A DNA stretch of 60,137 nucleotides. It comes from Clostridia bacterium (GTDB lineage: Bacteria; Bacillota; Clostridia; Christensenellales; Aristaeellaceae). Under the pieces are notes generated by a model. It did not search any database and had not been told where the DNA came from. It saw only the letters and a list, made by a program, of their open reading frames with translations. A program made the position numbers and the translations under genes. The stretch's first letter is position 1. Every line of letters starts with the position of its first letter. Of the stretch, positions 20,968 through 39,391 are shown piece after piece. The stretch is from contig JAFXQO010000038.1 in the NCBI GenBank assembly GCA_017527065.1, positions 1-60,137 of the forward strand. Reading direction: 5' to 3'.

Positions 20968-21207
20968 CAGATAGTGGGAAACGCTTTGATGCGGAGCGCC
21001 CGCGCGGCAGGCCGATCAGAGAGCCGGAGGATGGTGCGAATCCGGCCGGAGGCGCGCAGGGGAATCACCGCGGAGCGGACGGCTGAAACGGGAGGAGTAG
21101 GCCGGACCGGGTTCGCCCGTTACAGCGACTCAAGAGGACGCCCCGGAGGGCGTCAAACTGGGTGGTACCGCGAAGACTCGTCCCATGTGTGGGCGGGGCT
21201 TTTTTTA
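20968..21207 (+). promoter_or_regulatory. T-box leader (tRNA-Ile sensing) of ileS
   Basis: The leader has the T-box sequence TGGTACCGCG (21163-21172), an AGTA element (21096-21099), the GGTGCGAATCCGG stem II region near 21034 and a terminator, CGTCCCA/TGGGCGGG followed by seven T (21178-21207). The likely specifier is ATC (21064-21066) in GAATCACC, an Ile codon that agrees with the gene downstream. Uncharged tRNA-Ile would stabilise the antiterminator and permit ileS transcription. Confidence 0.95.
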
Positions 21208-21224
21208 TGCAAGGAGGAAGCAGC

Positions 21225-24200
21225 ATGTTCGAGAAGGTTCCAACGACTTTGGATTTCCTGAGCCGCGAGGCGGAAACCATCGCCTTCTGGCGGGAAAACG
21301 ACATCTTCAAAAAGACCATCGACCTGCGCAAGGGCAGCGATGTGTTCACCTTTTACGACGGCCCGCCCACGGCCAACGGCAAGCCGCACATCGGCCATAT
21401 CGAGACCCGCGCCATCAAGGACCTGATCCCCCGCTTCCAGACCATGAAGGGCAAGTCCGTCACCCGCAAGGCCGGCTGGGATACCCACGGCCTGCCGGTG
21501 GAGCTGGAGGTCGAAAAGCTGCTGGGCCTGGACGGCAAGGAGCAGATCGAGGCCTACGGCATCGAGCCGTTCATCAAAAAGTGCAAGGAATCCGTGTGGA
21601 AATACAAGGGCCTGTGGGAGGACATGTCCGAGCGCGTGGGCTTCTGGGCCGACATGGAGAACCCCTACATCACCTACGACAACAACTACATCGAGTCCGA
21701 ATGGTGGGCGCTCAAGACCATCTACGACAAGGGCCTGCTCTACAAGGGCCACAAGGTGGTGCCCTACTGCCCCCGCTGCGGCACCGCCCTGTCCAGCCAT
21801 GAGGTGAGCCAGGGCTACAAGCTGGTGAAGGAGCGCTCGGCCGTGGTGCGCTTCAGGGTGAAGGGCGAGGAGAACACCTGGCTCTACGCCTGGACCACCA
21901 CGCCCTGGACGCTGCCCAGCAACGTGGCGCTGTGCGTCAATCCGGAGGATACCTACGCCCGGTTCGATTTCGAGGGCCGCACCATCATCATGGGCGAGGC
22001 GCTCATCCCCGCCGTGCTGGGCGAGGACGCCGCGATCGAGAACAAGACCACCTTCCCCGGCAGCGCCCTCAAGGGCATGCGCTACGAGCCGCTGTTCGAC
22101 TTCCAGAAGGAGGTCATCAAGGGCCTTCCCAACGAGGAGAACGCATGGATCGTGGTGTGCGACGACTACGTCACCATGACCGACGGCACCGGCATCGTCC
22201 ACCAGGCCCCCGCCTTCGGCGAGGACGACGCCCGCGTGGGGCGCGAAAACAACATCCCCTTCCTGCAGCTGGTCAACACCAAGGGCGAGATGGAGGCCTG
22301 CACGCCCTGGGCCGGCGTCTTCATCAAGAAGGCCGATCCCATCATCCTGCAGGATCTGGAGAAGGCGGGCCTGCTGGTGGCCGCGCCGTCCTTCGAGCAC
22401 GACTATCCCTTCTGCTGGCGCTGCGACACCCCGCTGATCTACTACGCCCGCTCCACCTGGTTCATCCGCATGACCGCCGTGCGCGACCAGCTGATGAAGA
22501 ACAACCGCTCGGTCAACTGGATGCCGGATAACATCAAGGAAGGCCGCATGGGCAACTTCCTGGAGAACGTCATCGACTGGGGCCTCTCCCGCGAGCGCTA
22601 CTGGGGCACGCCGCTGCCGGTGTGGGTCTGCTCCTGCGGCCACATCCACGTGGTGGGCTCCATCAAAGAGCTGTGCGAGATCGGCCGCAACGTGACGCCG
22701 GACATCGAGCTGCACCGCCCCTACATCGACAAGGTGACTATCACCTGCGAGAAGTGCGGCGGCGAGATGCGCCGCACGCCGGAGGTCATCGACTGCTGGT
22801 TCGATTCGGGCTCCATGCCCTTCGCCCAGTGGCACTATCCCTTCGAGAACAAGGAGATCTTCGAGGCGAACTTCCCCGCCGCGTTCATCTCCGAGGCCAT
22901 CGACCAGACCCGCGGCTGGTTCTACACGCTGCTGGCCATCGGCACGCTGCTGTTCGACAGGGCGCCCTTTGAGAACTGCATCGTGCTGGGCCACGTGCAG
23001 GACGCCGAGGGCCGCAAGATGTCGAAGCACATCGGCAACGTCATCGACCCGTGGGAGGTGCTGGACAAGCAGGGCGCGGACGCCGTGCGCTGGTATTTCT
23101 ACGCATCCGGCGCGCCCTGGCTGCCCACCCGCTTCTCCGGCGACCTGGTGAGCGAGATGCAGCGCAAGTTCATGGGCACACTGTGGAACACCTACGCCTT
23201 CTTCACGCTGTACGCCTCCATCGACAACTACGACCCGCTGACCCAGAAGGCCGACCCGAAGGACCGCTCACTCATGGACCGCTGGGTGCTCTCCAAGCTT
23301 CAGACGCTGGTCATCACCGTGGACGATGGCCTGAGCGACTACAGGATCACCGAGACCGCCCGCGCCATCTCCGATTTCGTGGACGAGCTGTCCAACTGGT
23401 ATGTGCGCCGCTGCCGCGAGCGCTTCTGGGGCAAGGGCCTGGCGGGCGACAAGCTGGCCGCCTTCGAGACGCTCTATACCGTGCTCAAAACCCTGGCCGG
23501 CGTGTGCGCGCCCTACATCCCCTTCATGGCGGAGAGCATGTACAGAAACCTCGTGTGCAACATCGACGCCAGCGCCCCCATCTCCGTGCACCTGACCGAC
23601 TTCCCCACCGCCGACCGCTCCCTCATCGATCCCGAGCTGGAGGCGCAGATGGAGGAGGTCATCGCCGCGAAGCAGCTGGGCCTGGCCTGCCGCAACGCCG
23701 CGAATCTCAAGGTGCGCCAGCCGCTCAGCGTGATGTACGTCAAGGGCGCGAAGCTGGAGGCCGACCTGGCCGCGCTGATCGCCGACGAGATCAACGTGAA
23801 GAGCGTGCGCTTCGTGGACGACGCGAGGGACTTCACCACCTACGAGCTCAAGCCGCAGATGCGCACGCTGGGCCCGAAGTACGGCAAGCTCCTTGGCAAG
23901 ATCGGCGCGGCCCTCAAGACCATGGACGGCAACGACGTGGTGGACGCCTTCCATCGCGGCGAGACCGTAAAATTCTATGTGGACGGCACGGAAGTCGAGC
24001 TCAGCGAGAGCGACGTGCTCACCAAGGCCATCCAGAAGGAGGGCTTCGTGGCCCAGAGCGCGGGCGAGACGACCGTGGTCATCGACACCAACCTCACCCC
24101 CGCGCTGATCGAGGAAGGCTACGTGCGCGAGCTGGTCAGCAAGATCCAGACCATGCGCAAGGACGCCGACTTCGACGTGACCGACCGCGTGAACGTGACC

Positions 24201-24371
24201 GTCCAGGCCGGCGAAAAGCTGGCCGCCATCGCCGAAAAGGGCGCGGGCGACATCATGAAGGGCGTGCTGGCCCTGTCCGTGACCCTCGGCGCGCCGGAGG
24301 ACGGCGCGGTCTGCCGCGAGTGGGATATCAACGGCGAGCCGGCCGTGATCGGCGTGAAGGTGGCAAAATAA
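21225..24371 (+). CDS. ileS: Isoleucyl-tRNA synthetase
   Basis: IleRS charges tRNA-Ile and edits valine. The protein has 1048 residues. The class I motifs are HIGH at 55-58 (GKPHIGHIETRA) and KMSKH near 600 (EGRKMSKHIGNVIDP). The editing CP1 domain includes TTTPWTLPSN. The length and the anticodon-domain style match the eukaryote-like type 2 IleRS common in Clostridia, which in other organisms is linked to low mupirocin sensitivity. ATG 21225 has AAGGAGG 7 nt upstream, just after the T-box terminator; the longer ORF from 21162 starts inside the T-box and is rejected. Confidence 0.97.
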   Translation: MFEKVPTTLDFLSREAETIAFWRENDIFKKTIDLRKGSDVFTFYDGPPTANGKPHIGHIETRAIKDLIPRFQTMKGKSVTRKAGWDTHGLPVELEVEKLLGLDGKEQIEAYGIEPFIKKCKESVWKYKGLWEDMSERVGFWADMENPYITYDNNYIESEWWALKTIYDKGLLYKGHKVVPYCPRCGTALSSHEVSQGYKLVKERSAVVRFRVKGEENTWLYAWTTTPWTLPSNVALCVNPEDTYARFDFEGRTIIMGEALIPAVLGEDAAIENKTTFPGSALKGMRYEPLFDFQKEVIKGLPNEENAWIVVCDDYVTMTDGTGIVHQAPAFGEDDARVGRENNIPFLQLVNTKGEMEACTPWAGVFIKKADPIILQDLEKAGLLVAAPSFEHDYPFCWRCDTPLIYYARSTWFIRMTAVRDQLMKNNRSVNWMPDNIKEGRMGNFLENVIDWGLSRERYWGTPLPVWVCSCGHIHVVGSIKELCEIGRNVTPDIELHRPYIDKVTITCEKCGGEMRRTPEVIDCWFDSGSMPFAQWHYPFENKEIFEANFPAAFISEAIDQTRGWFYTLLAIGTLLFDRAPFENCIVLGHVQDAEGRKMSKHIGNVIDPWEVLDKQGADAVRWYFYASGAPWLPTRFSGDLVSEMQRKFMGTLWNTYAFFTLYASIDNYDPLTQKADPKDRSLMDRWVLSKLQTLVITVDDGLSDYRITETARAISDFVDELSNWYVRRCRERFWGKGLAGDKLAAFETLYTVLKTLAGVCAPYIPFMAESMYRNLVCNIDASAPISVHLTDFPTADRSLIDPELEAQMEEVIAAKQLGLACRNAANLKVRQPLSVMYVKGAKLEADLAALIADEINVKSVRFVDDARDFTTYELKPQMRTLGPKYGKLLGKIGAALKTMDGNDVVDAFHRGETVKFYVDGTEVELSESDVLTKAIQKEGFVAQSAGETTVVIDTNLTPALIEEGYVRELVSKIQTMRKDADFDVTDRVNVTVQAGEKLAAIAEKGAGDIMKGVLALSVTLGAPEDGAVCREWDINGEPAVIGVKVAK

Positions 24372-24448: not shown

Positions 24449-25381
24449 TTATTCTTCCGTGAACAGGGGGGTGGAGAGATAGCGCTCGCCGGTGTCGGGC
24501 AGCAGCGCCACGATCAGCTTGCCCTTGTTTTCGGGGCGCTTCGCCAGCGCCAGCGCCGCCTGGAACGCCGCGCCGGAGGAGATGCCCACCAGCAGGCCCT
24601 CCTTCTGGGCCAGCATGCGGCCGCCCGCGTAGGCGTCGGCGTTTTCGATGGTGATGATCTCGTCGTAGACCTTGGTGTCCAGCACGTCCGGCACGAAGCC
24701 CGCGCCGATGCCCTGGATGCCGTGGGGGCCGCTCTTGCCGCCGGAGAGCACCGGGGAGGCCGCGGGCTCCACGGCCACCACCTTCACGGCGGGCTTCTTC
24801 TCTTTCAGGTAGCGGCCGACGCCGGTGACGGTGCCGCCCGTGCCCACGCCGGACACGAAGATGTCGACCGCGCCCTCGGTGTCTTCCCAGATCTCGGGGC
24901 CGGTGGTCTCATAGTGCGCCTTGGGGTTGGCGGGGTTCACGAACTGGCCGGGGATGAAGCTGTTCGGGGTCTCCTTCGCCAGGCTGCCGGCCCGCTCGAT
25001 GGCCCCCTTCATGCCCTTCGCCGCTTCGGTGAGCACGATCTCCGCGCCGTAGGCCGCGATCAGCCTGCGCCGCTCGATGGACATGCTCTCCGGCATCACG
25101 ATGATGGTCCGGTAGCCCCGGGCCGCCGCGATGGCCGCCAGGCCGATGCCCGTGTTGCCGCTGGTGGGCTCGATGATGACCGAGCCTTCCTTCAGCCGGC
25201 CCGCCGCTTCCGCGTCCTCGATCATGGCCTTCGCCACGCGGTCCTTCACGCTGCCGGCCGGGTTGTTCCGCTCCAGCTTCACGGCGATGCGCGCCTTCAG
25301 GTTTTCCTTCTTTTCGATTTGCGTCAGCTCGACGATCGGCGTCTTTCCAACGATTTCCGCTGCGGATTTGTAGATCGGCAT
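24449..25381 (-). CDS. cysK: Cysteine synthase (O-acetylserine sulfhydrylase)
   Basis: CysK makes cysteine from O-acetylserine and sulfide with PLP. The protein is 310 residues. Lys46 in NPAGSVKDR binds [13 protein letters not shown] binds the substrate carboxylate, GTGGTVTG holds the phosphate and GISSGAA closes the site. ATG 25381 has AAGGAGG upstream. It is monocistronic with a consensus promoter whose start region carries a dyad. Its presence shows that cysteine can be made from sulfide, while sulfate reduction genes are missing here. Confidence 0.95.
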
Positions 25382-29160: not shown

Positions 29161-29975
29161 TGAAGGAAAAGAAAGAAGACGCCTCAATGGACAAGAAAGT
29201 GATCATGATCCTGGTGGACGGCATGCGGCCGGACGCCATTCCCGCCTGCGGCAGCGATTACGCCGCGGCCCTCATCGCCGGCAGCGCCTGCGCGATGGAC
29301 GCGCGCACGGTGTTCCCCTCCGTCACGCTGCCCTGCCACATGTCGCTGTTTCACAGCGTCGATCCCGACCGGCACGGCATACTGACAAACACCTACACGC
29401 CCCAGGTGCGCCCCGTCGAGGGCCTGGTGGAGCGGCTGGACCGGGCGGAGAAAAAGTGCGCTTTCTTCTACACCTGGGAGGAGCTGCGGGACCTCACCCG
29501 GTTCGACCACCTGGCCACCGCCGTGATGCTCAACCAACACAAGGCGCGAAACACCGACCAGGCCATCACCGACGCCGCCATCGCCTATATCAACCGGGAG
29601 GAACCGGATTTCCTGTTCCTCTACCTGGGCGAGACCGACGAGGTGGGCGGCCACGACAAGGGCTGGATGAGCGAGACCTACATGGGCTGCGTGAAGAACG
29701 CGCTGGACTGCGTGCGCCGCGTGCGGGAGAGCGTGTCCGAAGGATACGACATCATACTGCTGGCCGACCACGGCGGGCACGACCGCAGCCACGGCTCCGA
29801 TCGTCCGGAGGACATGACCATTCCCGTCATACTGAACGGCCCCTCTTTCGCGCCGGGCCGCGCGCTGGCGAACGTCTCCATCAAGGACTTGGCCCCCACC
29901 ATCGCCGAAATGCTCGGCGCCACCCCCGCCCGGGAGTGGGAGGGCCGCTCTCTTCTGGCGGAGGCGGGGCGCTGA
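29160..29975 (+). CDS. Type I phosphodiesterase/nucleotide pyrophosphatase-like protein
   Basis: This 271-residue member of the alkaline phosphatase superfamily has metal ligand Asp20 in MILVDGMRPDA and nucleophile Thr56 in FPSVTLPCHMS. The second-site residues appear in LGETDEVGGHDKGW and LLADHGGHDRSHG. No signal peptide is seen, so it acts inside the cell on an unknown phosphodiester or phosphonate. The start is ATG 29160 overlapping the degV stop (TAATG); ATG 29187 is an alternative with similarly weak ribosome-binding context. It is probably cotranscribed with degV. Confidence 0.85.
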   Translation: MKEKKEDASMDKKVIMILVDGMRPDAIPACGSDYAAALIAGSACAMDARTVFPSVTLPCHMSLFHSVDPDRHGILTNTYTPQVRPVEGLVERLDRAEKKCAFFYTWEELRDLTRFDHLATAVMLNQHKARNTDQAITDAAIAYINREEPDFLFLYLGETDEVGGHDKGWMSETYMGCVKNALDCVRRVRESVSEGYDIILLADHGGHDRSHGSDRPEDMTIPVILNGPSFAPGRALANVSIKDLAPTIAEMLGATPAREWEGRSLLAEAGR

Positions 29976-30089: not shown

Positions 30090-30812
30090 TCAGGTCTCCA
30101 TCTCATACCCGCAGGCCAGCATGTCCGCCCTGAAGAAATCATACATGTGGACGCCCTCGTCCGTCTTGTAGCGGCCCACGGAATCGGGGCGCATTTCGAT
30201 CTTTGCCAGGGGGATGCCGAGGAAAGCGCCCACCCGCGCCAGCGTGTTGTCCTGGTCGAACACCAGATCCTCGAAGCGCACGGAGATGGTCTTTTCCGGC
30301 GCGGGCGTGGCCCGCACGATCTCCCGCTGGTAGAGCCAGCTGATCGCCCGGTTGCGGCGCACGTCCTCCGTCCTGTCATAGGGCACGCCGAAGTCGTTCA
30401 GGTCGTCGGTCAGGTGCGCGCCGAGGATGCAGTCCCGCGGGTCGCGCACCCAGTGGATGTAGTGGATCTCCGGGAACATCTTCACGATCCAGGGATAGAC
30501 CAGCGTGGTCTCGGGCAGCTTCCAGCCGCGGTTGCCGTTATCCGTCCGCAGCACGGTCACCAGGAAATCCTCCACCAGCCGCACGAAGGCCGGGTCGGGC
30601 TCCATGGCGAGGACCTTTGAAAAATCCCATTCCAGGCCGCCCTTGTAGCCGACGTATTTCGCGAATACGCGGCAGGCCTCGTACATGCTCTCCGGGGGCA
30701 GCAGGTCGCCGGATTTGTTCAGCGGCGCGCCCATAAAGACGCCGCTGGCGCTGAGGGTATGCGACATGGCGCGGGTGCCGGAATGGCCGCGGCCGATGAT
30801 CGTGACGAACAT
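30090..30812 (-). CDS. PAPS-dependent sulfotransferase-like protein
   Basis: This 240-residue protein has the sulfotransferase P-loop-like 5'-phosphosulfate loop GRGHSGTRAMSH (7-18) and the 3'-phosphate motif WVRDPRDCILGA (121-132), with RFEDLVFD and GIPLAKIEMRP near the end. Such enzymes move sulfate from PAPS to sugars, lipids or small molecules; the acceptor cannot be read from the sequence. There is no signal peptide, so it works in the cytoplasm. AGGGAGAG precedes ATG 30812. It is divergent from the PAPS-making operon, with back-to-back promoters, which strongly supports the activity. Length is short but complete. Confidence 0.85.
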   Translation of the reverse strand: MFVTIIGRGHSGTRAMSHTLSASGVFMGAPLNKSGDLLPPESMYEACRVFAKYVGYKGGLEWDFSKVLAMEPDPAFVRLVEDFLVTVLRTDNGNRGWKLPETTLVYPWIVKMFPEIHYIHWVRDPRDCILGAHLTDDLNDFGVPYDRTEDVRRNRAISWLYQREIVRATPAPEKTISVRFEDLVFDQDNTLARVGAFLGIPLAKIEMRPDSVGRYKTDEGVHMYDFFRADMLACGYEMET

Positions 30813-30849
30813 GTTTCATCTCTCCCTTTATGTCTTTGTCTTTTGTTGG

Positions 30850-30878
30850 ATTATACCATGGCGGCCCGCCGCCCGCAA
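30850..30878 (-). promoter_or_regulatory. Promoter for the sulfotransferase
   Basis: On the minus strand TTGCGG (30878-30873), 17 nt and TATAAT (30855-30850). It is separated by about 85 nt from the divergent PAPS operon promoter. Confidence 0.7.
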
Positions 30879-30963
30879 GAGTGAAAATCCACCCCGTTTC
30901 GCCGCGATTTGACGGAATCCGCCGCGCGTTTTATCCTATCCCCACAGAAATGACCCGCGCGGC

Positions 30964-30992
30964 TTGACAAAGAAAAGGCGGTGAAGTATAGT
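30964..30992 (+). promoter_or_regulatory. Promoter for the PAPS synthesis operon
   Basis: TTGACA (30964-30969), 17-nt spacer and TATAGT (30987-30992), leaving a short leader before the fused cysC-cysQ start. Confidence 0.8.
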
Positions 30993-31028
30993 GGGATGGG
31001 CTATTGTGAACACGGTCGGGAGCGGAAT

Positions 31029-32435
31029 ATGTTTATGGAAAAGAACATCGTTTGGCACAGCGCGCTGACCACCCGGGCCCAGCGCCAGGCGGCGCTGAGG
31101 CAGCGGGGCGCGGTGCTGTGGTTTACCGGGCTGTCCGGCTCGGGGAAATCGACCGTCGCCGCGCGGGTCGAGCGGGCCCTCGTCGAGGGGGGCCGCGCGG
31201 CCTACCTGTTGGACGGCGACAACGTGCGCCACGGACTCAACAAGGACCTGGGCTTTTCGCCCGCCGACCGCGACGAGAACATCCGCCGCCTGGCCGAAAC
31301 CGCCGCGCTCTTCGCCGACGCGGGGGTGATCGTGCTGGTGAGCGCCATATCGCCGCTGCGGGCCATGCGGGCGCGGGCCCGCGCGTGCGTGGAGAAGCGC
31401 GCGCCCTTCTGCGAAATATACGTGAAGGCCAGCGTCGAAGCCTGCGCCGCCCGGGACCCGAAAGGGCTGTACGCGAAGGCGCTGCGCGGCGAGATCCAAG
31501 AATTCACCGGCGTCTCCGCGCCTTACGAGCCGCCCGAGGCTCCCGATCTCACGCTGGACACGGAGGTCATGTCCGTCGAGGCCTGCGCGGAGGCGGCGTT
31601 CCGAAAGGCCGAGGCGCTGTCGATTCCCAGCGACGCGCTGCTGCGCACGGCGGTTTCCGCTTCGCTGGAGGCCGGCCGGGCCATCATGGCCGTCTATTCG
31701 CGGGATTTCGGCGTGTCCTACAAGGCGGACTCGTCGCCGCTCACCGAGGCGGACACCGCCGCGGACGGCATTATCGCCCAGGCCCTCAGGCGCGATTTCC
31801 CGGAATACGCCCTGCTCTCCGAGGAGCGCGCGGACGACCGGGCGCGCCTTGAAAACCCCTTCTGCTTCATCGTCGATCCCCTCGACGGCACGAAGGAATT
31901 CGTGAAAAAAAACGGCGAATTCACGGTCAACATCGCGCTGTCCTACAGGGGGAAGAGCGTCATGGGCGCGGTCTACGCCCCGGCGCTGGACGAACTGTAC
32001 TTCGCCGCGGAGGGCAAGGGCGCCTTCTATTGCCCGCGGGCCTCGGAGGCGGAGGACCCCGTCGCCCGGGCGGAGCGCATCCGCGTGTCCGAAAGGCGGG
32101 AGAACCTGATCCTGATGGTCAGCCGCTCCCACATGGACGAGGAGACCCAATCGCTCATCGCCGCCAACGCGGACAGAATCGCCGACACGCGGCCCTCCGG
32201 CAGCTCCCTCAAGGGCTGTCTGATCGCGCGGGGCGCGGCCGATGTTTACTACCGCACCGGCCCCACCATGGAGTGGGACACCGCCGCCATGCAGTGCGTC
32301 GTGGAGCAGGCCGGCGGCGTCTTCCGGCAGGGGGACGGCTCGCCCATGACCTACAACCGCGCCGACTCACTGAACAAAAAGGGCTTTTACATCATCAACG
32401 CGGCGCAGAACCAGCTGCGCCGCCCGCAGAGGTGA
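31029..32435 (+). CDS. Fused APS kinase (CysC) and PAP phosphatase (CysQ)
   Basis: This 468-residue protein joins two enzymes. Residues about 1-195 are APS kinase with P-loop GLSGSGKS (34-41), LDGDNVRHGLNKDLGF and SADRDEN-like FSPADRDENIRRLAE. It phosphorylates APS to PAPS. Residues about 205-468 are an inositol-monophosphatase-fold CysQ with SSPLTEADTAAD, LLSEE, VDPLDGTKEF (about 282-291) and MEWDTAA (near 416). This half hydrolyses 3'-phosphoadenosine-5'-phosphate (PAP), the by-product of sulfotransfer. ATG 31029 is 6 nt after GGGAG. The CysQ half suits an organism that consumes PAPS by sulfation, and no cysH is present. The CysC-CysQ joining is unusual; CysN-CysC is the usual fusion. Confidence 0.9.
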   Translation: MFMEKNIVWHSALTTRAQRQAALRQRGAVLWFTGLSGSGKSTVAARVERALVEGGRAAYLLDGDNVRHGLNKDLGFSPADRDENIRRLAETAALFADAGVIVLVSAISPLRAMRARARACVEKRAPFCEIYVKASVEACAARDPKGLYAKALRGEIQEFTGVSAPYEPPEAPDLTLDTEVMSVEACAEAAFRKAEALSIPSDALLRTAVSASLEAGRAIMAVYSRDFGVSYKADSSPLTEADTAADGIIAQALRRDFPEYALLSEERADDRARLENPFCFIVDPLDGTKEFVKKNGEFTVNIALSYRGKSVMGAVYAPALDELYFAAEGKGAFYCPRASEAEDPVARAERIRVSERRENLILMVSRSHMDEETQSLIAANADRIADTRPSGSSLKGCLIARGAADVYYRTGPTMEWDTAAMQCVVEQAGGVFRQGDGSPMTYNRADSLNKKGFYIINAAQNQLRRPQR

Positions 32436-32441
32436 ATGGAT

Positions 32442-33323
32442 ATGGATCATCTCGACCAGCTGGAGGCGCGCTCCATCCACATCATCCGCGAGGCGTACAG
32501 CCAGTTCAAGAACCTGTGCATGCTCTGGTCCATCGGCAAGGACTCGACGGTGCTGCTCTGCCTGGCGCGCAAGGCGTTTTACGGCCACGTGCCCTTCCCG
32601 CTCGTGCACATCGACACCCACTACAAGATTCCCGAAATGATCGAATACCGCGACAGGCTGGCCCGGCAGTGGCACCTGGACATGGTCTACGGCGAGAACG
32701 CCGAAGCCCTGCGGGACAAGGCCACCTTTCCGGACGGCAACGCTACGCGCATCGAGTGCTGCCGCCTCCTCAAGACCGAGGCGCTCACCCATACCCTCGC
32801 CGGCGACTGGCCCCGCTACCGCATGAACCACGAGACCGGCCTGTACGAGCGCGACAAAAACACCGAGCCCTACACCGGGGTCATCGTGGGCGTGCGCGCG
32901 GACGAGGAGGGCAGCCGCTCCAAGGAGCGCTATTTCTCCCCCCGCGACCGCAACAACGACTGGGACATCGGCGACCAGCCCCCCGAGTTCTGGGGCCAGT
33001 ACAAGACCGACTTCCGCCCCGGCACCCACATCCGCGTGCATCCGCTGCTGGACTGGACGGAGCTGGACGTGTGGGAGTACATAAGGCGGGAAGAGGTGCC
33101 GGTGGTGCCCCTGTATTTCGACCACGGCGAGGGCAAGCGCTACCGGTCGCTGGGCTGCTGGCCCTGCACCAAGCCGGTCGACTCCACCGCGAAGAACCTG
33201 GACGAGATCATCGAGGAGCTCAGGACGGGGAAATTCGCCAACATCGCCGAGCGATCCGGCCGGGAGCAGGACAAGGAGGACGGCGGCGGCCTGGAAGAGC
33301 TGCGCAAGGGAGGCTACATGTAA
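32442..33323 (+). CDS. cysD: Sulfate adenylyltransferase subunit 2
   Basis: CysD makes APS from ATP and sulfate, with energy from the GTPase CysN. The protein is 293 residues with the PP-loop [10 protein letters not shown], then [49 protein letters not shown] and the C-terminal [11 protein letters not shown] 32442 is preferred, 6 nt after GAGGTGA; ATG 32436 is immediately against the same site. It follows the CysC-CysQ stop by 6 nt and its own stop overlaps cysN as TAATG, so the three proteins are likely made together. Confidence 0.95.
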
Positions 33324-35047
33324 TGGACACCCAGCAAAACCGCCGGGAGCACATGAACATCGTCATCGTGGGCCACGTGGATCACGGCAAGAGCACGGTC
33401 ATTGGCCGGCTCCTGGCCGACACCGGCGCGCTGCCCCAGGGCAAGCTGGAGCAGATTCGCGAGATGTGCCGCCGCAACGACAAGCCCTTTGAATACGCCT
33501 TCCTGCTGGACGCCCTCAAGGACGAGCGCTCCCAGGGCATCACCATCGACACCGCCCGCTGCTTCTTCCACACGAAAAAGCGCCAGTACATCATCATCGA
33601 CGCGCCCGGCCACATCGAGTTCCTCAAAAACATGATCACCGGCGCGTCCCGGGCCGCGGCGGCGCTGCTGGTCATCGACGCCCACGAGGGGGTTCAGGAG
33701 AATTCCCGCCGCCACGGCTATATGCTCGCCATGCTGGGCATCCGCCAGATCTGCGTGATGGTCAACAAGATGGATCTGGTGGATTACGACCGGGCCGTGT
33801 ACGAGCGCATTGAGGCGCAGTACAGCGATTTCCTGAAAGAGATCGGCGTGGCGCCCGAGGGCTTCATCCCCGTGAGCGCCCGGGAGGGCGACAACATCGC
33901 CCGGCGCAGCGGCCGCATGCCCTGGTACGCCGGCCCCACGGTGCTGGACATGCTGGACGAATTCCACACGCCCGGCTCGCTGGAAAACCTGCCCCTGCGC
34001 ATGCCGGTGCAGGACGTGTATAAATTCACCCACGGCGACAGCCGCCGCATCATCGCGGGCACGGTGGAGACCGGCACGCTGCGCGCCGGGGACGAGGTGG
34101 TGTTCTATCCCTCGGGCAAGCGCACCCGCGTGAACCGGGTGGAGCCCATGCGGTCGGACGAGGCCGAGGGCGTCGCCTCCGCGGGCTACGCCGCCGGATT
34201 CACCATGACCGAGCAGATCTACGTGCGCCGGGGGGAGCTGTGCGCCCGCGCCGGGGAGACGCCGCCCAAGGTGGCCAGCCGCATGCGGGCGAGCCTGTTC
34301 TGGCTGGGCCGCGCTCCCATGGTCCCCGGCAAGACGTATTTCCTCAAGACCGGCTCCGCGAAGGTGGAGTGCCGGCTGGAAAAGATCCTCAGCGTGATGG
34401 ACGCCTCCAGCCTGCACCGGGTGGAGAAGCGGGAGGTGGACCGCCACGAGGTGGCCGAGTGCGTGCTGGCGGCCAGCAAGCTCGTCGCCTTCGACGACAC
34501 CGGCGACCTGGCGGCCACGAACCGCTTCGTCATCGTGGACGACTATGAGATCTCCGGCGGCGGCATCTTCTCCGAGGCGCTGCCCGAGGCCGAGGACGCC
34601 CACGCCGCGGGCCGGTGCGCCTGGCAGACGGGCGATGTGTCTCCTGCCGAGCGGGCGCGGCTGTTGGGCCAGCGCCCCCGCATGCTGCTGCTCTCCGGAC
34701 CGGACGCCGAAGCCCTGCGCGAAACGGCCGCCGCCCTGGAGCGCCGCCTGCTGGAGGCGGGCCGGCCCGCCTATTACCTGGGCGTGGCCCCGTCGGCGGG
34801 CCCCGGGGAGCGCGCCGCGACCCTCGCCGAGCTGCCCGAGCGGGCGCGGCTGCTCATGAACGCCGGCGCGCTGGTGATCGCCACCGCCGTCGACCTCACG
34901 CCGGAAGAGGAGGACGCGCTGCGCATGCACGTTTCCTCCGACCGCATCGAGGCGCGCTGGCTGGGCGGCGCCTGCCCGCTGGACTGGCCGGTCCTGCCGG
35001 CCGGGGGCGCCGCGGAGGCGGTCTGGGCGCAGTGGGCGGCGGACTGA
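33323..35047 (+). CDS. cysN: Sulfate adenylyltransferase subunit 1 with degenerate C-terminal CysC-like domain
   Basis: This 574-residue GTPase subunit drives CysD. The GTPase motifs are GHVDHGKST (17-25), DAPGH (93-97) and NKMD (148-151), followed by EF-Tu-like beta-barrels. CysN normally ends near 450-475. Here residues 452-574 align by eye with APS kinase, including RMLLLSG, ALERRLLEAGRPAYYLG and LLMNAGALVIATAVDLTPEE. The P-loop position reads GPDAEALRE (459-467) with no GKS, so it cannot bind ATP in the usual way. It resembles a decayed NodQ-type CysN-CysC fusion, while working kinase activity is supplied by the fused CysC-CysQ upstream. The ribosome binding site is AAGGGAGG. Confidence 0.92.
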   Translation: MDTQQNRREHMNIVIVGHVDHGKSTVIGRLLADTGALPQGKLEQIREMCRRNDKPFEYAFLLDALKDERSQGITIDTARCFFHTKKRQYIIIDAPGHIEFLKNMITGASRAAAALLVIDAHEGVQENSRRHGYMLAMLGIRQICVMVNKMDLVDYDRAVYERIEAQYSDFLKEIGVAPEGFIPVSAREGDNIARRSGRMPWYAGPTVLDMLDEFHTPGSLENLPLRMPVQDVYKFTHGDSRRIIAGTVETGTLRAGDEVVFYPSGKRTRVNRVEPMRSDEAEGVASAGYAAGFTMTEQIYVRRGELCARAGETPPKVASRMRASLFWLGRAPMVPGKTYFLKTGSAKVECRLEKILSVMDASSLHRVEKREVDRHEVAECVLAASKLVAFDDTGDLAATNRFVIVDDYEISGGGIFSEALPEAEDAHAAGRCAWQTGDVSPAERARLLGQRPRMLLLSGPDAEALRETAAALERRLLEAGRPAYYLGVAPSAGPGERAATLAELPERARLLMNAGALVIATAVDLTPEEEDALRMHVSSDRIEARWLGGACPLDWPVLPAGGAAEAVWAQWAAD

Positions 35048-36223: not shown

Positions 36224-36955
36224 ATGCTCCTGTGGATCATCGCGGCGCTGGCGGCGTATTTCGTGAAGGGCCTGTGCGGCTTCGCGAACACGCTGCTGTT
36301 CAATTCCCTCATGAGCTTCGGCAACAGCGTGGTGAACATCGCGCCCGTCGAGCTGGTGCTCAGCTTCCCCACCAGCGTCATCATGGCCTGGAAGGGCCGC
36401 CGAAGCCTGCGGGCGGCGATCTTCGTGCCGCCCGCCCTCATGACGCTGGCGGGCAGCGCGGCGGGGGCCTTCCTGCTGAAGAACATCGACGGCTCGCTGG
36501 TCAAGGTGTTCTTCGGGTTCGTGGTGGTCGCCCTGGGGGTGGAGATGCTGCTGCGGGACCGGAGCGGAAAACGGGCGGAGGGCTCCACCGCGCTGTTCCT
36601 GGTGGTGGGGGTGCTCTCCGGCGTGCTCACCGGTCTGTTCGGCGTGGGCGCGCTGATGGCGGCCTACATGAGCCGCACCACCGCCAATGGCGACGAGTTC
36701 AAGGCGAACATGTGCGCCGTGTTCGCGGCGGGCGACGTGTTCCGCATCGCGCTGTACGCGGCCATGGGCATCCTCACCGGCCCGGTGCTCAGGCAGGCGC
36801 TCCTGCTCGCGCCCTTTATGCTGGCGGGGCTGTTCCTGGGCATGAAGAGCGCCGGGCGGATCGATGAGAAAAAGGCGCGCCGGATCGTCGTGATACTGCT
36901 GATCGTCTCCGGCGCGGCGCTGATCGCGGGAAATCTTCACCTGGGAGGAGCCTGA
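36224..36955 (+). CDS. TauE/SafE-family sulfite/sulfate exporter-like protein
   Basis: This 243-residue protein has about eight membrane helices in two halves. The first begins AAYFVKGLCGFANTLLFNSLMS and the second has GVLSGVLTGLFGVGALMAAYMS. Both match the repeated TauE/SafE motif. Family members export sulfite, sulfoacetate or related anions. The stop is immediately followed by the sulfatase ATG, so they are cotranscribed. Disposal of sulfate or sulfite released by the sulfatase is an attractive role, but this is inferred from context. GGAAAGGAAAG precedes ATG 36224. Confidence 0.85.
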   Translation: MLLWIIAALAAYFVKGLCGFANTLLFNSLMSFGNSVVNIAPVELVLSFPTSVIMAWKGRRSLRAAIFVPPALMTLAGSAAGAFLLKNIDGSLVKVFFGFVVVALGVEMLLRDRSGKRAEGSTALFLVVGVLSGVLTGLFGVGALMAAYMSRTTANGDEFKANMCAVFAAGDVFRIALYAAMGILTGPVLRQALLLAPFMLAGLFLGMKSAGRIDEKKARRIVVILLIVSGAALIAGNLHLGGA

Positions 36956-38413
36956 ATGAACCGTCTTCCGAACATCGTGTTCATACTCACCGACGACCAG
37001 GGCGCGTGGGCCATCGGCCGCGAGACGCCCGAGATCGTCACGCCCCACATCGACCGCCTGGCCGGGGAAGGGGTGTATTTCCGCAACGCCTTCTGCGCCA
37101 GCCCGGTGTGCTCGCCCGCCCGGTGCTCCATCGTCACGGGGCGTCTGCCCTCGGCCCACGGCGTGCACGACTGGCTCCGCGGCGGCAACGTGGACACAGG
37201 CGCCCTGCCGCCGGCCATGCGCCCCTTCCTGCCGGACGAGAGGCGGGCCGTGGACTACCTTGAGGGCATGCCCACGGTGTTCGACGCGCTGCGCGCCGCG
37301 GGCTACCATATGGCCCTGGTGGGCAAGTGGCACATGGGCGACAGCATGCGGCCGCGGGAGGGCTTCGAGGAGTGGACGGCGCTGCTGCGCGGCGGCTGTC
37401 CCTACCGGCGCGCCGACGTATTCGCGGACGGCGAAGCGCGGTTCATCGATCAGTACGTGACCGACTTCTTCACCGACCGGGCCGTGCGCTACATCGACAG
37501 CCGCCCCGCCGGGCCCTTCCTCCTGTCGCTTCACTACACCGCGCCCCACACGCCCTGGAATCACGAACAGCACCGGGAGGACATGCTGCGCCTTTACGAC
37601 GACTGCCCCTTCGCCTGCCATCCCCTCCAGCCGGTTCACCCGGACCAGGTGGGCAACATCGACGTGGGCGACACCGACGAGCGCCGGCGCTACCTCCTCA
37701 AGGGCTACTACGCCGCCATCTCCGCCGTGGACGAGGGGGTGGGCCGCGTGATGGAGGCGCTGAGGCGCAACGGGCTGGACAAAAACACCCTGGTCGTGTT
37801 CGCGGGCGACAACGGCATGAACCTGGGCCAGCACGGCGTGTGGGGCAAGGGCAACGGCACCTATCCCATGAACATGTACGACTCGTCCGTAAAGGTGCCC
37901 TTCATCGTGTGGGGGCCGGGCCTCGTGCGGCAGGGCGCGGTGGTTGACAACCTCGTCAGCCACTACGACATCCTGCCCACACTGCGGGCCTTCCTGGGCC
38001 AGCCCACCGGCGCGGACGAAAAGCTGCCGGGGGAATCCTTCCTGCAGGAGCTGACGGAGGGACGCCCGCCCGTCGACCGCCGGCTGTGCGTGCTGGACGA
38101 ATACGGCCCCGTGCGCATGATCCGCAGCCGCACCCACAAGCTGGTATACGAGGGCATCCGCGGCGGACATCAGCTCTACGACCTGACCGCCGACCCCGGC
38201 GAAACGGTCAACCGCTACGGCGATCCCGCCTATGCCGCCGCGCGGCGTTCGCTCATGGCGGAACTGGAACGCGCCTTTACCGAATACGCGCTCGCCCCCT
38301 TCGGCGGCGCGAAAACCGCGCCCACCGGGTCCGGCCAGCTCGGCCCCATCACCCGGGAAGGCGAGGACGTGTTCCATCCGGAGATCGTGCTGTTCAGGGA
38401 GAAGCAAGACTGA
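36956..38413 (+). CDS. Cys-type sulfatase
   Basis: This 485-residue sulfatase has the signature VCSPARCSIVTGR. Cys52 is the residue normally converted to formylglycine and Arg56 completes the C-x-P-x-R motif. Metal ligands are seen in FILTDDQG, VVFAGDNGMNLGQHG and GKWHMGD. No signal peptide is visible, so it probably acts on imported sulfated sugars in the cytoplasm. An anaerobic maturase is expected elsewhere; none is seen here. GGGAGG ends 5 nt upstream of the ATG that abuts the TauE stop. Some family members are phosphonate hydrolases, but the CSPAR motif with this context favours a sulfatase. Confidence 0.9.
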   Translation: MNRLPNIVFILTDDQGAWAIGRETPEIVTPHIDRLAGEGVYFRNAFCASPVCSPARCSIVTGRLPSAHGVHDWLRGGNVDTGALPPAMRPFLPDERRAVDYLEGMPTVFDALRAAGYHMALVGKWHMGDSMRPREGFEEWTALLRGGCPYRRADVFADGEARFIDQYVTDFFTDRAVRYIDSRPAGPFLLSLHYTAPHTPWNHEQHREDMLRLYDDCPFACHPLQPVHPDQVGNIDVGDTDERRRYLLKGYYAAISAVDEGVGRVMEALRRNGLDKNTLVVFAGDNGMNLGQHGVWGKGNGTYPMNMYDSSVKVPFIVWGPGLVRQGAVVDNLVSHYDILPTLRAFLGQPTGADEKLPGESFLQELTEGRPPVDRRLCVLDEYGPVRMIRSRTHKLVYEGIRGGHQLYDLTADPGETVNRYGDPAYAAARRSLMAELERAFTEYALAPFGGAKTAPTGSGQLGPITREGEDVFHPEIVLFREKQD

Positions 38414-38431: not shown

Positions 38432-39391
38432 ATGGATGATTTTCGCTTTGCCATTATGGGCGCTGGCCGCATTGCCCGCAAGTTCTGCGACGCCGCGGCG
38501 CTGACGCCGGGCTGCGCCGTCATCGCCGCGGCCAGCAAATCGCTGGAGCGGGCCCGGGCGCTGGCCGCCGAAAAGGACATTCCCGCCGTATACGACAGCT
38601 ACGAGCGCATGCTCGAGGCGGAGAAGCCGGACTGCGTCTACATCGCCACCACCTGCGAATCCCATTTCCCCCTGGCCATGCTCTGCGCGGAGCATGGCGT
38701 GCCGGTGCTGTGCGAAAAGGCGATGTTCATGTCCTCGGCGGAGGCCGAAGCCTTCTTCGCGCTGGCGGAATCGAAGAAGGTGTTCGCCATGGAGGCGCTT
38801 TGGAGCCGCTTCCTGCCCGCGGTGAACCAGGCGCGGGCGTGGATCGGGGAAGGGCGCGTGGGCGAGGTCGCCCTGGCCGAGATGAACATCGGCTTCATCG
38901 CGCCGCCCGATCCCGAAAACCGCTATTTCAGCCCGAAGCTGGGCGGCGGCGCGGCCTACGACCTCACGGTGTACGGCCTGCAGATCCTCGCCTGGGCGCT
39001 GGACCGCCCGATCACCCGGGCGCGCGCGGAGGCCGTCCGTGCGCAAACCGGCGTGGACGCCTCCTCGATCGTGCTCCTGAGCCTGGACGGGCTGCCCGCC
39101 GTGGTGAAGAGCAGCCTGGCCGCGTCCATGAACGAGGGCCTGATCGTCTACGGCTCGAAGGGCCGGATCGTCGTGCCCCACGCGCACCATGGGAGCGAGG
39201 CGCTGCTGCTGGCCCCGGACGGCGCTGAGATCGAACGGTTCACCGACGAGGTCACCCGCAACGGCTTCACCTATGAGATCGGGGAGGTCATGCGCTGCGT
39301 GCGCGCCGGCGAGATCGAGAGCCCCGTGGTGCCCCACGCCTCCACCCGCGCCTGCGCCCAGGTCTTCGACCTGATCCGCGCCGCGCTGTAA
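38432..39391 (+). CDS. Gfo/Idh/MocA-family oxidoreductase
   Basis: This 319-residue NAD(P)-dependent dehydrogenase has the Rossmann motif MGAGRIARKF (9-18), VYIATTCESHFPLA, the active-site VLCEKAMFMS (EKxx lysine) and the C-terminal beta-sheet region with MEALWSRFLPAV and GGGAAYDLTVYGLQ. Related enzymes oxidise sugars, inositols or dihydrodiols. GAGGAGG precedes ATG 38432. It follows the sulfatase by 18 nt, so a role on the desulfated sugar is plausible. It ends at a strong terminator. Confidence 0.9.
   Translation: MDDFRFAIMGAGRIARKFCDAAALTPGCAVIAAASKSLERARALAAEKDIPAVYDSYERMLEAEKPDCVYIATTCESHFPLAMLCAEHGVPVLCEKAMFMSSAEAEAFFALAESKKVFAMEALWSRFLPAVNQARAWIGEGRVGEVALAEMNIGFIAPPDPENRYFSPKLGGGAAYDLTVYGLQILAWALDRPITRARAEAVRAQTGVDASSIVLLSLDGLPAVVKSSLAASMNEGLIVYGSKGRIVVPHAHHGSEALLLAPDGAEIERFTDEVTRNGFTYEIGEVMRCVRAGEIESPVVPHASTRACAQVFDLIRAAL

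Follow-up and report, generated by a model that had tools for sequence, protein, structure and literature searches.

The described arrangement that most resembles the locus studied here is the cholesterol-sulfate cluster BT_0411-BT_0416 of the gut anaerobe Bacteroides thetaiotaomicron, in which genes for the biosynthesis of 3′-phosphoadenosine 5′-phosphosulfate (PAPS) stand beside a sulfotransferase (PMC9417993). Our subject is a sulfotransferase (ST) and the adjoining cys operon in a stretch of 60,137 nucleotides from a Clostridia bacterium (assembly GCA_017527065.1, contig JAFXQO010000038.1), the whole of which is called the window. Compared by description with the Bacteroides cluster, the locus is alike in that PAPS genes of a gut anaerobe immediately adjoin a single sulfotransferase gene; it differs in that the acceptor there is cholesterol, whereas the ST family is tied to a core of sugar enzymes in several phyla, and in that CysC is here fused to CysQ. 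A previous interpretation made from the letters of the window (the sequence-only reading) had proposed a sulfated cell-surface or signalling molecule. The companions of ST across phyla are instead sugar dehydrogenases, an isomerase and a sulfatase-fold protein, and we replace that proposal with one that we hold to be reasonably probable: the cys operon would supply PAPS for the sulfation of a small carbohydrate handled by this conserved core. A highly conserved bacterial ST family is linked in this way to a specific sugar-processing gene set in several phyla, and the question of the sulfation target narrows to a short list of substrates, in organisms that seemingly make PAPS without assimilating sulfate.

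Among the best matches of a literature search that covered few subscription papers, we found no ST in a cassette of Gfo/Idh dehydrogenase, isomerase and sulfatase genes, no fusion of ST to CE15 and no CysC-CysQ fusion; the term "cysq" is also absent from the main text of PMC2275785. Neither a described member of the ST family nor the family with its sugar core was found in the literature searched, and Bacteroides offers the precedent for a layout that puts a PAPS cluster next to a sulfotransferase (PMC9417993). The sequence-only reading had called the locus unusual for a Gram-positive gut-type anaerobe; its rarity bears this out, ST being found in two of 300 genomes sampled from the taxonomic family (one of them the source genome), but the Bacteroides precedent qualifies it.

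All genes named by the sequence-only reading at 30090..35047 are present and match their profiles (Table 1). In a Pfam search, the CysC half of the fusion protein matches APS_kinase (PF01583, 215.1 bits, residues 26-177) and the CysQ half matches Inositol_P (PF00459, 173.4 bits, residues 204-446); the protein exceeds the cut-offs of TIGR00455 and TIGR01331, and its CysC P-loop reads GLSGSGKST in translation. CysD, which passes one NCBIfam model, scores under the cut-off of the stricter TIGR02039 (244.5 vs 396.6 bits), and the start of CysN overlaps the CysD stop. The two activities of a PAPS-biosynthesis operon, ATP sulfurylase (CysDN) and adenosine 5′-phosphosulfate (APS) kinase, are both encoded. 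CysN has a C-terminal tail (approximately 34661-35047): the fused CysNC model NF004035 aligns up to residue 540, under its cut-off, and the CysN tails of seven relatives were matched by a CysC query at 36-38% and that of an eighth at 33%. No P-loop was seen in the translated window tail when inspected by eye, and the tail is probably the relic of a decayed APS-kinase domain. The window CysN resembles CysNC fusions in having an APS-kinase-like tail, but differs from them: this tail has a decayed look, and the functional kinase is the one joined to CysQ. The proposed divergent promoter region holds for the cys operon, which has a near-consensus site in the shared intergenic region, but the promoter search reported none for the ST side on the minus strand.

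Table 1. Features of the ST/cys locus, with positions counted along the whole window
Feature	Position	Strand	Evidence or remark
ST, predicted PAPS-dependent sulfotransferase, 240 aa	30090-30812	-	PF13469 (Sulfotransfer_3), 52.8 bits, cut-off 27
Divergent intergenic region shared by ST and cys operon	30813-31028	.	Promoter-like site within
Promoter-like site for cys operon	30964-30992	+	TTGACA-17-TATAGT, 11/12 matches, near-consensus
CysC-CysQ fusion: APS kinase and 3′(2′),5′-bisphosphate nucleotidase (3′-phosphoadenosine 5′-phosphate [PAP] phosphatase)	31029-32435	+	Pfam, TIGR00455, TIGR01331
CysD, sulfate adenylyltransferase small subunit	32436-33323	+	PF01507, 143.8 bits; NF003587, 353.5 bits, over cut-off
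CysN, sulfate adenylyltransferase GTPase subunit	33320-35047	+	TIGR02034, 351.4 bits, over cut-off
TauE/SafE permease, candidate sulfate carrier, membership uncertain	36224-36955	+	PF01925, 98.9 bits

The absence of PAPS reductase and sulfite reductase, which the sequence-only reading had noted for the window, extends to the genome of 3.07 Mb (85 contigs, 89.31% complete). The sulfite reductase domain PF01077 had no match in it; the same profile found matches in 11 of 14 control genomes. PF01507, the PAPS-reductase family, matched three proteins: CysD and two on another contig (C72), the latter probably prophage genes and not CysH. These two (L002 and L003, G000:C72:41951-46873) sit among phage-like and ParB-like open reading frames (ORFs), as judged by eye. 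CysH together with a sulfite reductase, as assimilatory sulfate reduction would need, was not found in this 89% complete genome, and the reductive sulfur genes are likely absent, although incompleteness leaves doubt. Since there is no sulfite reductase domain and PF01507 matches only CysD and the two prophage-like proteins, the most likely purpose of the PAPS is sulfation via ST and not assimilation. This agrees with the sequence-only reading, which had inferred that PAPS is made to sulfate something; a search of the genome for further sulfotransferases with PF13469 returned only ST, and the divergent CysC layout recurs in 15 of 47 related loci. Nor was the combination found that would point the other way, cysH and a sulfite reductase with a sulfotransferase lacking PAPS residues: PF01077 is missing and the PAPS motifs of ST are intact. 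Among the 47 genomes with a close ST relative, PF01077 had a match in 11 (3 of them among the 27 Clostridia-type genomes) and none in 36.

These relatives were collected with the ST sequence alone, by scanning genome contigs for six eight-residue patterns, one of which had to match exactly, a procedure that misses remoter members. The scan gave 48 loci, reduced to 47 by excluding L052 (27% identity). The 47 relatives are 54-92% identical to ST over almost the full length, with the exception of L046, which is cut by a contig end. The ST-bearing genomes comprise 27 of Clostridia type, two of which are labelled no more precisely than Firmicutes or Bacillota, and 20 that belong to other phyla: three Chthonomonas/Chthonomonadales, one WS1, two Kiritimatiellia/Kiritimatiellota, four Chloroflexi-type, one Planctomycetota, two Verrucomicrobia, four Lentisphaeria/Lentisphaerae, two Gemmatimonadetes and one Thioalkalivibrio, a record that may be a binning error. 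Two Chthonomonas-type copies are 70% identical to the window protein, compared with 63% for some Clostridia copies, and because they are the nearer ones, spread of ST by horizontal transfer is suggested. The WVRDPRD and GRGHSGTR motifs singled out by the sequence-only reading proved to be family features, GRGH[SG]GTR and R[DN]PRD being present in 48 of 48 sequences, the window one included; we take both to be PAPS motifs, the former being the 5′-phosphosulfate P-loop. An alignment of the window protein with 38 of the 47 relatives (39 sequences) has 45 invariant columns, among which D36, E101 and H133 are candidates for the catalytic base. ST resembles Sulfotransfer_3 proteins and the protein-tyrosine and CurM sulfotransferases in family profile and PAPS motifs, but its family is only weakly similar to solved structures: the 39-sequence profile matched protein-tyrosine sulfotransferase at E 2e-5, the best value, and CurM sulfotransferase at E 0.0023 in the Protein Data Bank (PDB), and no NCBIfam model matches ST at E 0.01. 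ST is accordingly best described as a predicted PAPS-dependent sulfotransferase of the PF13469 family with intact PAPS motifs.

The sequence-only reading had suggested searching homologous loci for a conserved acceptor-building gene, and the homologous loci and genomes did contain conserved partner genes: c6 (a PF01261 TIM barrel), c4 (PF00884 sulfatase fold) and the dehydrogenases c2a and c2b (PF01408, Gfo/Idh/MocA), which recur with ST and are called the core here. In raw counts that treat genomes irrespective of relatedness, c4 is present in 44 of the 47 ST-bearing genomes (E <=1e-60; all 44 also <1e-90), a set gathered without regard to c4; by contrast, a phylum sample of 398 genomes has it in only 2 (E <=1e-90), one of which is the source genome, and the family sample of 300 has it in 19 (E <=1e-60), both ST genomes of that sample among them. 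Around c4 in 45 ST-bearing genomes (the source genome and the 44), c2a was found in 38, c6 in 30 and c2b in 27, all three in 20 and at least one in 43; an AraC regulator accompanies the core in 12.

The core of the source genome lies on contig C17 (L061), where genes for 2-keto-3-deoxy-6-phosphogluconate (KDPG) aldolase, c6, c4, c2a, the AraC regulator, an MtaA/CmuA-like protein and c2b follow one another on the plus strand. The KDPG-aldolase exceeds the TIGR01182 cut-off; the MtaA/CmuA-like methyltransferase-family gene within the core (L061:11744-12811) scores under its model cut-off. Identity to the core of L011 is 55% for c6, 63% for c4, 71% for c2a and 58% for c2b. The core dehydrogenases and isomerase show distant similarity to dehydrogenases of inositol and sugars and to sugar isomerases, and in this they resemble the Gfo/Idh/MocA and TIM-barrel pathways for inositol, levoglucosan and DgpA-type deglycosylation, but neither c2a nor c2b passes the cut-off of inositol 2-dehydrogenase or a related Gfo/Idh equivalog (best TIGR04380, 106.6 bits vs 355). 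To our knowledge, those pathways operate without a sulfotransferase. c4 aligns with sulfatases and phosphonate monoester hydrolases. Its motif TT[PS][GA]Y occurs in 60 of 62 stretches (45 TTPGY, 11 TTSGY, 3 TTSAY and 1 TTPAY; the other two are unread fragments) and falls, in an alignment with 4upi, opposite the C-x-P-x-R of sulfatases, so that Thr replaces the catalytic Cys; the C/S-x-P-x-R maturation motif of formylglycine (FGly) sulfatases is missing. Because TT[PS][GA]Y stands where sulfatases have C-x-P-x-R, c4 is unlikely to be an FGly sulfatase. A Thr nucleophile in this superfamily often goes with phosphoryl chemistry.

Some of the stretches retrieved around the ST relatives are short and several stop at contig ends. 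On them, PAPS genes lie near ST in 20 of the 47 loci, 15 of which share the window's divergent arrangement, with CysC no more than 1 kb away, and core genes occur in 13, of which five also have PAPS genes. Eight loci, all outside Clostridia, have no more than 30 bp between ST and the dehydrogenase gene c2a. CysD, CysN, CysC and ST are all on the same strand in three Chthonomonas-type loci. Twelve Clostridia loci have a CysC ORF of 437-593 aa, sufficient to include CysQ; in L011, L018 and L046, three loci in which a TauE-like ORF (cluster c26, recognized by eye) adjoins CysN, it is 191-205 aa without CysQ. In five loci (L043, L044, L045, L047 and L051; four Lentisphaerae-type and one Verrucomicrobia), ST is the N-terminal part of a protein of 616-657 aa, whose C-terminal part is a PF22244 glucuronyl esterase in L043 and L044, the two that were run against Pfam. 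An L-rhamnose mutarotase gene (PF05336) adjoins ST in L034, and ORFs 36-39% similar to it occur in L011 and L018; a rhamnosidase-like gene is near ST in L021, with similar genes in L015, L016 and L017 (cluster c14). These rhamnose- and glucuronyl-related neighbours are hints that favour a sugar or uronic acid acceptor, naming none.

The pathway we favour builds on gene content, intact PAPS motifs, the reductive sulfur genes not found, co-occurrence and co-localization. CysD-CysN would turn sulfate into APS, which the CysC half would phosphorylate to PAPS; the divergently transcribed ST would pass the sulfuryl group of PAPS on to a small acceptor of carbohydrate type, leaving the by-product PAP for the CysQ half to remove. 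Acceptor or product would then be processed by the C17 core, comprising the c6 isomerase, the c2a and c2b dehydrogenases and c4, with the AraC regulator. We infer that ST and the core serve one pathway with its steps in this order; it would be cytosolic, no signal peptides having been seen by eye, and the acceptor would be a sugar or uronic acid.

Several observations weigh against this pathway. ST and the core are on different contigs in the source genome, and neither PAPS nor core genes are on the retrieved stretch in 19 of the 47 ST loci, several of them short. Three ST genomes (G307, G320 and G339) have neither c4 nor c2a, and two Gemmatimonadetes have c4 with none of its partners beside it. 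Conversely, 17 of the 19 c4-bearing genomes of the family sample are without ST, and PF13469 finds no sulfotransferase in 18 ST-less core genomes, namely those 17 and G670. On the supporting side, distances between ST sequences correlate with those between c4 sequences (r 0.69 in 45 genomes, 0.64 in 26 Clostridia and 0.58 in 19 others, with 0 of 2000 permutations as high in each), a correlation that was computed without a control gene and may be partly due to shared ancestry.

ST might instead decorate a cell-surface glycan or lipid or make a sulfated signal, which we consider unlikely. PAPS supply and ST indicate sulfation under this explanation too, the nearest PDB relatives by sequence being protein-tyrosine sulfotransferases makes a macromolecular acceptor conceivable, and a glycosyltransferase-like ORF in L039 and a flippase-like cluster (c35) in L017 and L021 were recognized by eye. 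However, the cross-phylum companions of ST are the dehydrogenases, isomerase and sulfatase-fold protein of the core, and among the neighbours listed (read by eye, a selection run against Pfam) no recurring glycosyltransferase or export set was seen. The tie to sugar genes also speaks against sulfonation of host or dietary small molecules such as sterols or phenols, a quite improbable role modelled on BT_0416 with cholesterol in Bacteroides. Its attraction is that a PAPS cluster next to one sulfotransferase follows the same logic as BT_0411-0416 (PMC9417993), but relatives bear the names SulCav, CSSed and Centralia, and if these denote cave, sediment and soil, as we read them, host sterols would be an odd substrate. 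It is improbable, too, that ST and the core merely travel together through horizontal transfer or a common ecology while working separately: c4 accompanies ST in 44 of 47 genomes over many phyla and ST closely adjoins c2a in eight loci, even though the patchy occurrence of ST (2 of 300 family genomes) and cross-phylum identity of up to 70% suggest mobility, the two are on separate contigs in the source genome and the core is found without ST. Assimilation of sulfate to cysteine is scarcely credible as the fate of the PAPS; a cysteine synthase is encoded at 24449-25381 and the genome is only 89% complete, but there is no sulfite reductase domain, no CysH candidate besides CysD and the two prophage-like matches, and the PAPS motifs of ST are intact.

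Cores without ST bear on two further explanations. An FGly-type sulfatase is on the core stretch in 9 of 12 ST-less cases vs 4 of 49 ST-bearing ones, and the binding protein of a sugar ATP-binding cassette (ABC) importer in 6 of 12 vs 0 of 49; some of the 49 stretches come from the same genome and some are only 3-5 kb long, the queries were taken from the ST-less family, and all ST-less examples but one belong to that single family. The exception, G670, from another family of the same phylum, has ABC permeases beside its core and no ST; two ST-bearing stretches, L049 and L122, also have permease matches, though weaker ones. Genome-wide, 16 of 18 ST-less genomes have the FGly sulfatase, but so do 22 of 48 ST-bearing ones, there mostly with lower identity, and these counts weaken the notion of a strict one-for-one exchange between ST and importer plus sulfatase. 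That ST stands in for the uptake of a sulfated sugar is no more than suggestive. An extension of the favoured pathway, tentative and rather doubtful, would make sulfation an entry step of sugar metabolism comparable to phosphorylation: organisms with an importer and FGly-sulfatase would import a sulfated sugar, and organisms like the present one would sulfate the sugar intracellularly via a dedicated PAPS operon, both using the same core. The fit is partial; if it is true that sulfation primes sugar breakdown, this would be a new metabolic strategy. The sulfatases and sugar ABC importers beside the core in many ST-less genomes mean that sugar sulfates may enter cells, and ST could then run backwards, transferring the sulfate of an imported sugar sulfate onto PAP so that it is salvaged as PAPS. 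This we regard as very improbable, as the neighbours of ST are enzymes for making PAPS from sulfate, together with one that destroys PAP.

Downstream of the cys operon, an FGly-type sulfatase gene with a CSPAR motif (36956-38413, plus strand) adjoins the TauE/SafE permease gene. As a member of the module it was rejected: it is not a c4 orthologue, having 23% identity to the c4 of its own genome. The Gfo/Idh gene at 38432-39391 was likewise rejected as c2a, with 31% identity over part of the L011 c2a vs 71% for the C17 c2a. On the other side, a PF01663 type I phosphodiesterase-like protein is encoded at 29184-29975 (plus strand), convergent with ST; the position beside ST is taken in L011 by a larger PF01663 protein, in L018 by its homologue and in L005 by a sulfatase-family protein. 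A T-box leader (Rfam RF00230, 96 bits) at 20977-21188 (plus strand) is directly upstream of a large ORF (21162-24371) that by eye resembles an aminoacyl-tRNA synthetase.

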